In this document: piece after piece, positions 54,450-58,389 of the stretch | Position numbering within the stretch: position 1 is the stretch's first letter | Layout of the letters: every line of letters starts with the position of its first letter | Origin: Marinilabiliaceae bacterium ANBcel2 | GTDB taxonomy: Bacteria > Bacteroidota > Bacteroidia > Bacteroidales > Marinilabiliaceae | Assembly (NCBI GenBank): GCA_029688995.1 | Contig: JARULA010000004.1 | Location: 124,001-188,000, forward strand | DNA: 64,000 nt | Reading direction: 5' to 3' | Notes under the pieces: generated by a model | The model's input: only the letters and a program-made list of their open reading frames with translations | The model's database searches: none | Told to the model about the DNA's origin: nothing | Program-made: the position numbers and the translations under genes

Positions 54450-54494
54450 AATAAAGAGATGCCATATTTTTACTAATTTGGCATCTTCTTTATT
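54450..54494. terminator. Bidirectional terminator between the mutase and the RecD-like gene
   Basis: AATAAAGAGATGCCA (54450-54464) pairs with TGGCATCTTCTTTATT (54479-54494) over two helices (ATGCCA/TGGCAT and AATAAAG/CTTTATT) with a small bulge. It overlaps the last bases of the convergent helicase gene. Confidence 0.7.
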
Positions 54495-55926
54495 CTCTCA
54501 TTTTATCACTATAAAACTCTTTAGGGAAATTAATAAAATAGAGCTGCTCTGATGCTCGTGTAACAGCTGTATATAGCCATCTATAAAGATCTCTGCCCAA
54601 ATACTCCTCTTTAAAATAGCCCATATCTATAAATACTGCTTTCCACTGACCACCCTGCGATTTATGACAGGTCATCGCATATGCAAATTTAACCTGAAGG
54701 GCATTAAAAAATTGGTTCGACTGTAAAGATTCATATCTTTTTTTGGCTGAAGAGATATCCTGATAATCCTCCATTACAACATTATAAAACTCTTCTTGCT
54801 GCCCAACAGAAAATCCGGCTCCGGGTAATTGTAATGTATCAAGATTAATTCTAACATCGATATCAACATCCTTATAATCCATCAATTCACAAGTGATATC
54901 AGCAAACCTATACCCATACATATTATGATAATTTTTGATACGCACTACTTTTCCAATATCACCATTAGCAATAAACTCAATTTTTGGGTGATCTTTAACC
55001 CAATAGTAATTATTACGCGTTATAAGTAAATAGTCACCCGTCGATATCTCATCCTCTTTAAAAAGAATTGTATTACGAATACCTGTATTGTATAAATTAG
55101 ACCGTTTATTAGATCTGCATATAATTAAAGTCTCCTCCTCTCCGTATAAATCGTAACATCTGTTAATCTCCTCCTGGACTTCAGCTCCATTTAAAGCATG
55201 AGTATCATTAAAACGTACTGTCTCTAATTTAGGGTAACATCCTTCATAAAAACCATTACTTAATGCCGTTCTAATAGTAGTTGCATTATACAAAATACCA
55301 CTATCATGATGTTGACGCACAACATCTCTTAACTCTGTCTCAATAATCTCTCTGCCATAACCACTTAAATAATCAGCATCGAGGGCCGGACTTATCAATG
55401 TTGATACTGGTGGCAACTGAGCGGTATCTCCAACAATAATTAATTTACAACCGGTCCCTTTATACACAAACTCAATTAAATCATCTAAAAGTCGGCCCGA
55501 CCCAAAAAATGCGCCTCCCGAAGATTCATTAGAGATCATAGAGGCTTCATCAACAATAAAAAAAGTGCTCTTTTGCCTATTATAACTAACCTTAAATCCC
55601 GAAAAATAATCAATTGAAGATTCACGATTATAAATATATTTATGAATTGTATAAGCCGGGATGTCAACAGCTTTACTCAACACCTTTGCAGCTCTTCCCG
55701 TAGGCGCTAACAATACAGCATTAAAATCACTCTCCCTTAAAGTAGTAACAAGTGATTTAATTAATAAAGTTTTTCCTGTTCCGGCATATCCTTTCAATAA
55801 AAAAGTGTAATTTGGTTGCTTGAGTGCAACAAAAGATGACATTTTATCAATAGCAACAGATTGCGATACCGTTGGCTCATGAGGAAAATGGAAATGTAAA
55901 CGACTTAAAAAATAGTCTTTTAGCAT
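54490..55926 (-). CDS. RecD-like ATP-dependent DNA helicase / AAA family ATPase
   Basis: A 478-residue superfamily 1B helicase-like protein. Walker A is KGYAGTGKTLLIKSL near the N-terminus, FFIVDEASMISN is Walker B, IVGDTAQLPPV is motif III-like, and the C-terminus has MTCHKSQGGQWKAVFID and YTAVTRASEQLYFI (UvrD_C_2 type). It is much shorter than RecD and has no RecB/RecC neighbours, so it fits the stand-alone RecD-like helicases common in Bacteroidota. Cytosolic DNA repair or recombination role is inferred from the family. Confidence 0.9.
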   Translation of the reverse strand: MLKDYFLSRLHFHFPHEPTVSQSVAIDKMSSFVALKQPNYTFLLKGYAGTGKTLLIKSLVTTLRESDFNAVLLAPTGRAAKVLSKAVDIPAYTIHKYIYNRESSIDYFSGFKVSYNRQKSTFFIVDEASMISNESSGGAFFGSGRLLDDLIEFVYKGTGCKLIIVGDTAQLPPVSTLISPALDADYLSGYGREIIETELRDVVRQHHDSGILYNATTIRTALSNGFYEGCYPKLETVRFNDTHALNGAEVQEEINRCYDLYGEEETLIICRSNKRSNLYNTGIRNTILFKEDEISTGDYLLITRNNYYWVKDHPKIEFIANGDIGKVVRIKNYHNMYGYRFADITCELMDYKDVDIDVRINLDTLQLPGAGFSVGQQEEFYNVVMEDYQDISSAKKRYESLQSNQFFNALQVKFAYAMTCHKSQGGQWKAVFIDMGYFKEEYLGRDLYRWLYTAVTRASEQLYFINFPKEFYSDKMRE

Positions 55927-56021: not shown

Positions 56022-56654
56022 ATGAAAACAGTACTTCAAATTTTATTGACCATTGCTATTATCCTACTTGCATACATGGCTGTTGAAAGTATTAACAGAC
56101 CAGTAAGGTTTCAGCAGGAGTATGAATCAAGAAGAGATAAAGTAATTGAAAGACTAAAAGAGATAAGATCTGCTCAGGTTGCATACAGATCAATGCACGG
56201 AGAGTTTACTTCAAGTTTTGATACTCTTTCAAACTTTATTGCCGAAGACTCACTTGTTCTGGTTAGAATGGAAGGTAATTTAACTGACAGCATGCTGGAT
56301 GCCGGTATGACAGAGAGACAAGCTCTTGATTTAGGGATAATATCGCGCGATACTATTAGAAGAAGCGTAAAAGATTCTCTTTTTAGAAATAAGTCGTGGA
56401 TTTTGGATTCAATAAGTTATATTCCTTACTCACAGGGCGAAAAGTTTGAAATGGAGAAAGGAAATGTAGAGACAGCATCAGGAATTAAAGTTCCGGTTTT
56501 TCAAGCTCAGGCTCACAACAACACATTCACAAAAGACCTTAACAGACAGGAAGTTATTAATATAAACGACAGGCAAACGCAGCTTGACAGATATCCCGGT
56601 CTGCGAGTAGGTTCTATTGAGCAAGCTAATAACAATGCAGGTAATTGGGAATAA
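56022..56654 (+). CDS. Single-pass membrane protein with pilin-like segment, unknown function
   Basis: A 210-residue protein starting MKTVLQILLTIAIILLAYMA, one membrane helix, followed by a charged helix (YESRRDKVIERLKEI) and the segment RSAQVAYRSMHGEFTSSFDT (about 49-68), which resembles the region after the helix in type IV pilins and pseudopilins. The rest is probably periplasmic and ends with IKVPVFQAQAHNN. No prepilin peptidase site is visible, so it is not a canonical pilin. The frame is open to 55872, but that extension overlaps the divergent helicase gene. It is 9 bp upstream of DUF3822. Similar proteins appear conserved in Bacteroidales from memory. Confidence 0.82.
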   Translation: MKTVLQILLTIAIILLAYMAVESINRPVRFQQEYESRRDKVIERLKEIRSAQVAYRSMHGEFTSSFDTLSNFIAEDSLVLVRMEGNLTDSMLDAGMTERQALDLGIISRDTIRRSVKDSLFRNKSWILDSISYIPYSQGEKFEMEKGNVETASGIKVPVFQAQAHNNTFTKDLNRQEVININDRQTQLDRYPGLRVGSIEQANNNAGNWE

Positions 56655-56663
56655 AAAAATGAC

Positions 56664-57518
56664 ATGAGGGAAATTTCATTTACCGACGATCATTTTGATT
56701 ATAAAATAACATCATCATATTTTATATCCATCCAGATTTCTCTGGATGGATTTTATTTTTGCACTCTTGATCCTGTAAAAAACAGATATATCCAGTTTGA
56801 AAATCATCTGTTATCAAAAGATGCAAAAAAAAATCAAGAGAGTATCGAAGAGCTTTTTAATAAAAAAGAGAAATTAAATCTTCCATATAAAAAAACATTT
56901 ATATTAATACCGGGATTAACAAATACGTTGGTTCCGTCAGGATTATATAAAACCAATAAACCCGAAGAGTGGCTTAAACTATCATACGGTAATATTAACC
57001 TAAAAGAAAATATAGTTGTAAGCAACAAAGTTAATTTAGCTGATGCATATAATGTATTTACAATCCCAAAAAAATTGCACACAATTATATCGAGACAATT
57101 TCCCTCTCCACAAATATTTCACCAGCATACTCCTATTATTGAAAAAAATCTTTCAACAAGAATGACCAATCACGGTTCAACAATCCTCTACATAAATCTC
57201 GAGGACTCTTTTTTTGATATTATAGCATTTAAAAACAATAAACTGCAACTATCAAACTCCTTTATAATTAAAAGTAAACAAGATTTTATCTACTTTGCAC
57301 TCTTTGTATTTGAACAGCTAAAGTTAGAGCGAGCCCAAACTAAAATAATTCTTAGCGGGAGACATTCTGGTTTTAACACATTGCAAAAAGAGCTAAAAAG
57401 ATATATCAAGAATATTTATACCACTAAATTACCATATGAATTTCAGTACTCATATCATTTTAGAGATTTAAAAAATACAGCATTTCACAATATGCTAAGT
57501 TTACCTTTATGCGAATAA
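56664..57518 (+). CDS. DUF3822 family protein (possibly actin-like)
   Basis: A 284-residue cytosolic protein that I recognise as DUF3822. Two segments look like an ASKHA/actin-like phosphate-binding arrangement: STILYINLEDSFFDIIAF near 173-190 and a later KIILSGRHSGFNTLQKEL near 228. In PilM/FtsA relatives the first binds phosphate and the second adenosine, but the Gly-rich loops are weak here. No enzymatic activity is known. It overlaps rsmD by 10 bp and follows the membrane protein by 9 bp, suggesting the first two form one complex and rsmD is a passenger. Confidence 0.82.
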   Translation: MREISFTDDHFDYKITSSYFISIQISLDGFYFCTLDPVKNRYIQFENHLLSKDAKKNQESIEELFNKKEKLNLPYKKTFILIPGLTNTLVPSGLYKTNKPEEWLKLSYGNINLKENIVVSNKVNLADAYNVFTIPKKLHTIISRQFPSPQIFHQHTPIIEKNLSTRMTNHGSTILYINLEDSFFDIIAFKNNKLQLSNSFIIKSKQDFIYFALFVFEQLKLERAQTKIILSGRHSGFNTLQKELKRYIKNIYTTKLPYEFQYSYHFRDLKNTAFHNMLSLPLCE

Positions 57519-58048
57519 TAAGCGGTTTTTTAAAAGGAAGGCGTTTTAATCCGCCAAAAAACTTTAAAGCACGTCCAACAACCGATACTGCGCGTGAAAG
57601 TCTTTTTAATATACTAAACAACACAATTGAGTATGATCAAATTAAAGTTTTGGATCTTTTTTCAGGAACCGGAGCTGTCACCTATGAGTTTGTTTCACGA
57701 GGAGTTAAAGAGATAACATCTGTAGAAAAGAATTACAACCATTACAAATTTATCAAAAAAACTATTGAACAGTTAAAGATAGATAACTATGTAAAGACAG
57801 TAAAGTTGGATGTATTTAAATTTCTGAAAAACGAATCAACAGAAAAATTTGATCTTATTTTTGCAGATCCTCCATTCGAAATGGAAAATTTTGAGTTATT
57901 GCCCGATTCAATTTTTTTATCGAATCTTTTAAATCCGGATGCTTTAGTAATAATAGAACACGGTCCCGATAAAGACTTTTCGAATAATAATAATTTTAAA
58001 GATAGAAGAGAGTATGGAAAAGTTAATTTCTCATTTTTCAGTTTATAA
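57509..58048 (+). CDS. rsmD: 16S rRNA (guanine966-N2)-methyltransferase
   Basis: Methylates G966 of 16S rRNA in the small subunit. A 179-residue Rossmann methyltransferase: MRIISGFLKGRRFNPP is the family start, RPTTDTARESLFNIL follows, VLDLFSGTGAV (48-58) binds SAM, and the catalytic motif is DPPF (120-123). It begins inside the DUF3822 reading frame (10 bp overlap), so translation is coupled. It ends 19 bp before the first tRNA gene on the other strand. Confidence 0.95.
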   Translation: MRIISGFLKGRRFNPPKNFKARPTTDTARESLFNILNNTIEYDQIKVLDLFSGTGAVTYEFVSRGVKEITSVEKNYNHYKFIKKTIEQLKIDNYVKTVKLDVFKFLKNESTEKFDLIFADPPFEMENFELLPDSIFLSNLLNPDALVIIEHGPDKDFSNNNNFKDRREYGKVNFSFFSL

Positions 58049-58067
58049 AGATAACTGAAATTAAAAG

Positions 58068-58141
58068 CGGTCTGGACGAGACTCGAACTCGCGACCTCCG
58101 GCGTGACAGGCCGGCATTCTAACCAACTGAACTACCAGACC
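58068..58141 (-). tRNA. tRNA-Asp (GTC), copy 3 in transcription order
   Basis: The minus strand reads as a full cloverleaf: acceptor GGTCTGG paired with CCAGACC, discriminator G, anticodon loop CTGTCAC with anticodon GTC, and T-arm GCGAGTTCGAGTCTCGT. It is 74 nt with the discriminator; CCA is not encoded. It is identical to the two copies that follow. Confidence 0.96.
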
Positions 58142-58208
58142 AATAAATTTTATCTATAATTAAATCAATAATAAGATAATAAATCATTACAATTTTTTGA
58201 AAAAGTAG

Positions 58209-58282
58209 CGGTCTGGACGAGACTCGAACTCGCGACCTCCGGCGTGACAGGCCGGCATTCTAACCAACTGAACTACCAGACC
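58209..58282 (-). tRNA. tRNA-Asp (GTC), copy 2
   Basis: Identical over 74 nt to the other two copies, with the same acceptor GGTCTGG and anticodon GTC. It lies 67 bp from the copy at 58068 and 33 bp from the copy at 58316. The spacers are AT-rich and not duplicated. Confidence 0.96.
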
Positions 58283-58315
58283 AACAAATCAACCATTTAA
58301 ATATTAAATTAAAAG

Positions 58316-58389
58316 CGGTCTGGACGAGACTCGAACTCGCGACCTCCGGCGTGACAGGCCGGCATTCTAACCAACTGAACTACCAGACC
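58316..58389 (-). tRNA. tRNA-Asp (GTC), copy 1 (promoter-proximal)
   Basis: Identical over 74 nt to the two downstream copies. It is the first transcribed, about 65 bp downstream of a TATATTTG promoter at 58454-58461. The three copies are most likely one transcript processed by RNase P and RNase Z. Confidence 0.96.

Follow-up and report, generated by a model that had tools for sequence, protein, structure and literature searches.

Type IVa pili include PilM (PF11104), an actin-like protein that binds the N-terminal tail of PilN and whose gene adjoins that of a single-pass inner-membrane protein. The cytoplasmic domain of GspL and the PilO2/BfpC proteins of type IVb pili bring an actin-like fold into the platform of a secretion system or pilus, and they carry a membrane helix of their own. 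The major pseudopilin GspG/PulG (PF08334) is built from a long N-terminal helix and a head formed by an antiparallel sheet. The "T2SS" of the Bacteroidetes is known as a divergent lineage within the type IV filament superfamily (PMC6668835). The Cytophaga-type T2SS-like machine of some members of this phylum is a complete system that includes GspE, GspF, a secretin and pilins of its own.

Here, we analyzed two neighboring genes, coding for a single-pass membrane protein and a DUF3822 protein, in a stretch of 64,000 nucleotides (the window) from Marinilabiliaceae bacterium ANBcel2. The DUF3822 protein shares the actin-like fold of PilM over almost the whole chain, sequence matches to PilM were obtained for its homologues in other classes, and its gene likewise adjoins that of a single-pass inner-membrane protein. 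In contrast to PilM, its nucleotide motifs are lost and it is not accompanied by PilN, PilO, PilP, PilQ or a motor. The pilin-like neighbor also differs from PilN, as it has no cytosolic tail of PilN length. Unlike GspL and PilO2/BfpC, the DUF3822 protein is soluble and the membrane helix is encoded by a separate gene. The membrane protein shares the long N-terminal helix and the antiparallel-sheet head with GspG/PulG, but it lacks the leader and Glu5 and carries a GNW signature and many O-glycosylation sequons instead. BT_3980 (3HRG) belongs to the same family as the DUF3822 protein and was previously just an uncharacterised structure. The Cytophaga-type machine is encoded at a different locus and is absent from the genome of the window.

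Gene order and distribution of the pair

The two genes are located on the plus strand with 9 bp between them. An earlier note on this DNA had described a 210-residue protein followed after 9 bp by a DUF3822 gene at 56022-57518, and these coordinates as well as the quoted sequences are exact. The rsmD gene, which was not mentioned in that note, overlaps the DUF3822 gene by 10 bp and is part of the same conserved gene block. The features are as follows:

54490..55926, minus strand: RecD/PIF1-like helicase (AAA_30, E = 3.3e-24; UvrD_C_2, E = 2.4e-19)
56022..56654, plus strand: single-pass membrane protein, 210 aa (ATG at 56022, stop at 56652-56654); modeled with a TM helix at about residues 3-21 inside helix 2-59, then a pilin-like head and a C-terminal GNWE
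56664..57518, plus strand: DUF3822 protein, 284 aa (ATG at 56664; PF12864, E = 5.3e-54)
57509..58048, plus strand: rsmD, 16S rRNA (guanine(966)-N(2))-methyltransferase (TIGR00095 equivalog, 120.9 bits, cut-off 117.5)

An alternative, longer ORF for the membrane protein starts with TTG at 55872 (260 aa), yet the relatives conserve the start MKTV... at 56022. The helicase gene is often kept upstream in divergent orientation (66 of 80 named Bacteroidales loci), but we do not count it among the genes of the module. Directly 3' of rsmD, a tandem array of three tRNA-Asp(gtc) genes was observed (58067-58389, minus strand).

Of 295 Bacteroidia genomes, 264 contain DUF3822 and 122 the membrane protein, both nearly always as a single copy; many lineages are devoid of the membrane protein. 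Among the compared Bacteroidia genomes having both genes, 54 of 56 encode them adjacently on one strand. A profile search of contigs with three close sequences resulted in 80 named Bacteroidales loci, including Carboxylicivirga, Marinifilum, Phocaeicola and Bacteroides. DUF3822 is directly downstream of the membrane protein at 76 of them (74 by the limit of the script and 2 by an overlapping ORF call). rsmD is adjacent to the pair within Bacteroidia as well as in further classes, and DUF3822 still adjoins rsmD where the membrane protein was lost. Families f79 and f70 (L093, L099 and L098) kept the membrane protein with no recognisable DUF3822; rsmD directly follows the membrane protein in L099, and the membrane protein stands alone in L093. 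Since each gene is found without the other, neither needs its partner everywhere. We conclude that the pair is conserved, but not obligate. The earlier note had proposed to check the co-occurrence of the two genes; their neighborhood proved to be conserved, but some lineages contain one gene alone.

Fold and ancestry of the DUF3822 protein

The DUF3822 protein in the window matches PF12864 with 183.4 bits, compared to a Pfam gathering score of 24.9. Its homologue BT_3980 from Bacteroides thetaiotaomicron (E = 2.6e-24, 25% identity) was solved in 2009 and deposited as an actin-like ATPase fold (3HRG). This structure was also found as a DALI neighbor (Z = 7.4) in a paper on the type IVb pilus protein PilO2 (PMC3984277).

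A Foldseek search with the AlphaFold2 model of the window's DUF3822 protein (70 homologues, pLDDT 93.8) returned 3HRG first, PilM at all of the ranks 2-9, and then FtsA. VIA-align yielded Z scores of 31.3 for 3HRG, 17.7 for PilM (2ych; rmsd 3.7, 262 of 284 residues aligned) and 17.7 for FtsA (1e4f), compared to 12.8 or less for EutJ, ParM, MreB and Hsp70. The model shows an actin-like fold of the PilM/FtsA type, and the structure search that had been set beforehand thus found ASKHA-type similarity. PilM and FtsA typically contain a 1C subdomain. On the model, we would place it at residues 87-145, which form a strand-helix-strand-strand-helix run.

The residues expected to bind a nucleotide have largely changed. 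The position of the phosphate-1 Asp is mostly occupied by Gln (34 of 70 DUF3822 homologues), the phosphate-2 Asp is present in 6 of 70, and one Gly is left in the adenosine site; FtsA proteins from this class show no variation at the equivalent positions. Judged by these motifs, ATPase activity of DUF3822 is unlikely. The earlier note had suggested an actin-like ATPase core, which 3HRG and the model matches confirm with respect to the PilM/FtsA fold. As the nucleotide motifs are lost, the term "ATPase core" holds for the fold alone.

DUF3822 itself did not yield a sequence match to PilM_2, and its comparison to an FtsA profile by hhalign gave no signal (probability 0.65%). The genome of the window encodes its own FtsA-like ORF (L131). 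PilM_2 matches in Bacteroidia genomes were considered as candidates for PilM and rejected, as they represent FtsA.

The connection to PilM was found in other classes of the phylum. The membrane protein was matched in 82 of 198 phylum genomes, with 59 of the 82 being outside the class Bacteroidia. The membrane proteins of these classes comprise only about 150-190 aa, and their genes again precede a gene for about 300 aa and rsmD; an ORF between the membrane protein and rsmD was present at 18 of 20 loci. By hhalign, the membrane proteins from other classes align with those of Bacteroidia (99.5%, E = 2.9e-22), and the products of the middle genes align with DUF3822 (91%, E = 1e-6). A profile of the middle genes matched PilM structures in the PDB (3jc8, E = 2.7e-12; 5eox, E = 5e-8; 2ych, E = 1.7e-4), and one member passed the Pfam cut-off for PilM_2 (E = 1.2e-9). 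The phosphate-1 Asp is rare in the middle genes, too. Taken together, the PilM matches of the middle genes and their alignment with DUF3822 point to PilM ancestry of DUF3822, which we regard as well supported by sequence comparison.

A further gene with a weak DUF3822 match (E = 3e-4) was observed at L071:2879-4297 (family f18, another class). It has no rsmD nearby and is located directly downstream of a gene encoding a TM segment and a helix-hairpin-helix (ComEA-like) domain. A link to DNA uptake via this neighbor was considered and is unsupported, with a negative hhalign comparison to the PilM-like set.

The name DUF3822 was not found in the literature searched, and the papers found mention neither the pilin-like neighbor nor PilM ancestry nor a gene order shared throughout the phylum.

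The membrane protein and its likeness to type IV pilins

The hydropathy profile of the membrane protein shows a single hydrophobic segment around residues 3-21 (mean Kyte-Doolittle value 2.45), while later 19-residue windows reach 0.69 at best, in agreement with the single N-terminal membrane helix of the earlier note. The protein has no Pfam or NCBIfam family match, the weak Pfam match of the window's protein to Pilin_GH having an E-value of 0.077. Its relatives form a clear family, as the C-terminal GNW is present in 109 of 109. In addition, RSAQVAYRSMHGEFTSSFDT is present in the window's protein and conserved across the family, and is therefore not due to chance.

The AlphaFold2 model (29 homologues, mean pLDDT 90.7) shows an unbroken helix (residues 2-59) that leads into an antiparallel sheet. 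An antiparallel sheet after a long helix corresponds to the architecture of type IV pilins. Foldseek alone did not find any match with E < 0.001 for this model, pilins included, and the pilin match comes from VIA-align, which was run on the candidates of Foldseek. The best five of 997 aligned chains were GspG (Z = 6.8), PulG (Z = 6.5), TcpA (Z = 5.4), CofA (Z = 5.1) and PilA1 (Z = 4.8), all of them type IV pilins or pseudopilins, and the sixth reached only Z = 3.2. Since VIA-align Z scores below 8 can reflect a common arrangement, we rate this evidence as good, but short of conclusive. For the membrane proteins of other classes, PulG was the best sequence match in the PDB (E = 0.088), and 4 of 20 weakly matched T2SSG with a marginal E-value of 0.002 at best. 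The model and this sequence bridge uphold the pilin-like region after the helix that had been noted earlier, and the membrane protein probably descends from a pseudopilin.

None of the 109 relatives has a prepilin leader, with a Gly preceding and Glu5 following the cleavage site, N-terminal to the TM helix. The prepilin pattern was matched 15 times, always at the distal end of this helix. As the leader peptide and Glu5 are absent, we expect no maturation and probably no polymerization of the membrane protein.

With the N-terminus in the cytosol and the C-terminus outside, the cytosolic side of the protein would comprise about 2 residues, which offers hardly any binding surface to a PilM-like protein. 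Family f6 (L016, L018, L022-L024, L026, L029, L030 and L032; probably Flavobacteriaceae) carries an extra N-terminal hydrophobic segment. Its members also have a short basic loop before the main TM helix, often with (K)(F/Y/I)(I/L/V)P (read by eye), which would be cytosolic and is a candidate docking site. Other variants of the membrane protein were also observed. In family f10 (L033, L034 and L039) it contains an insert that resembles a biotinyl/lipoyl barrel-sandwich domain (Biotin_lipoyl, E = 0.0054, and HlyD_D23, E = 0.03, for single members in Pfam), and the version of L104 (family f65) has 415 aa, roughly double the normal size.

In Bacteroidota, proteins outside the cytoplasm are O-glycosylated at the motif D-S/T-A/I/L/V/M/T (PMC8550257; PMC12871550). 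The membrane protein in the window contains six D[ST][AILVMT] sequons (D67, D76, D89, D110, D118 and D129). Its family carries 4.39 sequons per protein compared to 0.57 expected from shuffling, whereby the relatives share descent and the counts are not independent. The membrane proteins of other classes carry 4.55 compared to 0.71 expected from shuffling. No enrichment was detected for DUF3822 (0.62 vs. 0.70 expected) or RsmD (0.21 vs. 0.44 expected), and this strong contrast with the two neighbors supports a periplasmic head of the membrane protein. From the sequons, we infer that the head is periplasmic and O-glycosylated. BT_3979 from the list of fucosylated proteins of B. thetaiotaomicron was considered as a representative of the membrane protein and rejected; it is annotated as a methyltransferase and is probably RsmD.

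Filament machines and the possible role of the pair

No match for T2SSE (PF00437), T2SSF (PF00482), Peptidase_A24 (PF01478) or Secretin (PF00263) was found in the whole assembly of the window's genome (2.98 Mb, 98% complete). Thus, the earlier observation that no secretion ATPase, prepilin peptidase or secretin is encoded nearby extends to the whole assembly, and to the platform protein as well. A T2SSF protein was detected in 20 of 99 Bacteroidia genomes, and the membrane protein is not coupled to it (10 of 20 vs. 36 of 79, Fisher P = 0.80). No GspG was found with PF08334 in Bacteroidia T2SS genomes.

Outside Bacteroidia, T2SSF (GspF/PilC) was detected in 19 of 20 module-containing genomes. 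In L252, the one machine cluster of another class that was scanned with Pfam, GspF, two GspE-type ATPases and a secretin are encoded together and away from the module, indicating that module and machine are distinct even in genomes carrying both. An uncharacterised protein of 526 aa adjoins the ATPases and the secretin, in the place expected for PilM/GspL, and comparison of the module models to this protein did not result in a clear match. The idea that the pair represents the missing machine part in other classes is weakened by this 526-aa protein. In other classes, the machine loci L252:8376-9245 and L251:8314-9205 contain pairs of small proteins starting with MGQQQLLLI(V/I)LGVI, which have pilin-like N-termini; the one that was scanned had no Pfam match.

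We give an even chance to the pair being an inner-membrane module derived from PilM and a pseudopilin that is reused without a filament; two former pilus components have probably been put to another use in these bacteria. In such a module, the membrane protein would span the inner membrane in N-in/C-out orientation as a permanent anchor with no leader to cleave, and its putatively O-glycosylated, pilin-like head would extend into the periplasm. The DUF3822 protein, in which the canonical ATP site is lost, would dock from the cytosol onto the membrane, in analogy to PilM and PilN (reviewed in PMC10191384). Gene order and the precedent of PilM and PilN suggest this contact between the two proteins, which together may form a static, non-polymerizing scaffold. 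More tentatively, and with less confidence, we suggest an ancient two-protein complex of a PilM-derived pseudo-ATPase and a non-polymerizing, O-glycosylated pseudopilin, which could act as a filament-free scaffold or sensor in the inner membrane and could have outlasted the loss of the motor in most Bacteroidia.

Mirror-tree analysis resulted in a partial correlation of 0.18-0.21 for the pair, below that of either protein with rsmD, and thus showed no extra co-evolution. Together with the very short cytosolic tail and the independent losses, this speaks against contact between the two proteins. The mirror-tree result would also fit two proteins of type IV filament ancestry that have no joint function and are neighbors because they are trapped in an old rsmD operon, as would the independent losses of each gene and the retention of DUF3822 beside rsmD in genomes that lost the membrane protein. 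We consider this rather unlikely, since nearly all genomes that keep both genes, from several classes, encode them adjacently with the membrane protein upstream, and since both proteins trace to one ancestral machine, an improbable coincidence for unrelated neighbors.

Two further explanations appear considerably weaker to us. The module could still serve a type IV filament or secretion machine that is fully present in other classes and has diverged beyond detection here, given the frequent presence of GspF/PilC in module-containing genomes of those classes and the known divergence of the Bacteroidetes "T2SS" (PMC6668835). This is improbable in view of the empty search of the window's own genome, the independence of the membrane protein from T2SSF in Bacteroidia, the lack of a leader for a prepilin peptidase and the separate machine cluster in L252. 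Slightly more doubtful still is an independent single-pass protein whose helix-plus-sheet shape is convergent and not due to kinship with pilins. While the low Z scores, the lack of a confident match by Foldseek alone, the marginal T2SSG E-values and the missing prepilin motif would allow for convergence, the five pilins and pseudopilins stand well above all other aligned chains, PulG and Pfam T2SSG were matched by the shorter homologues from other classes, and the protein is paired with a PilM relative.

Overall, the interpretation in the earlier note is partly supported, with both of its fold assignments being right. Our analysis suggests that most of the sampled Bacteroidia have no detectable type IV filament platform protein, yet a PilM relative is near-universal among them (264 of 295) and a pseudopilin relative is common. 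The uncharacterised DUF3822 thereby gains an evolutionary identity and a candidate partner, which can be tested in tractable Bacteroides or Flavobacterium, and the pair can serve as a natural example for studying the role of PilM-type proteins outside the context of the motor.
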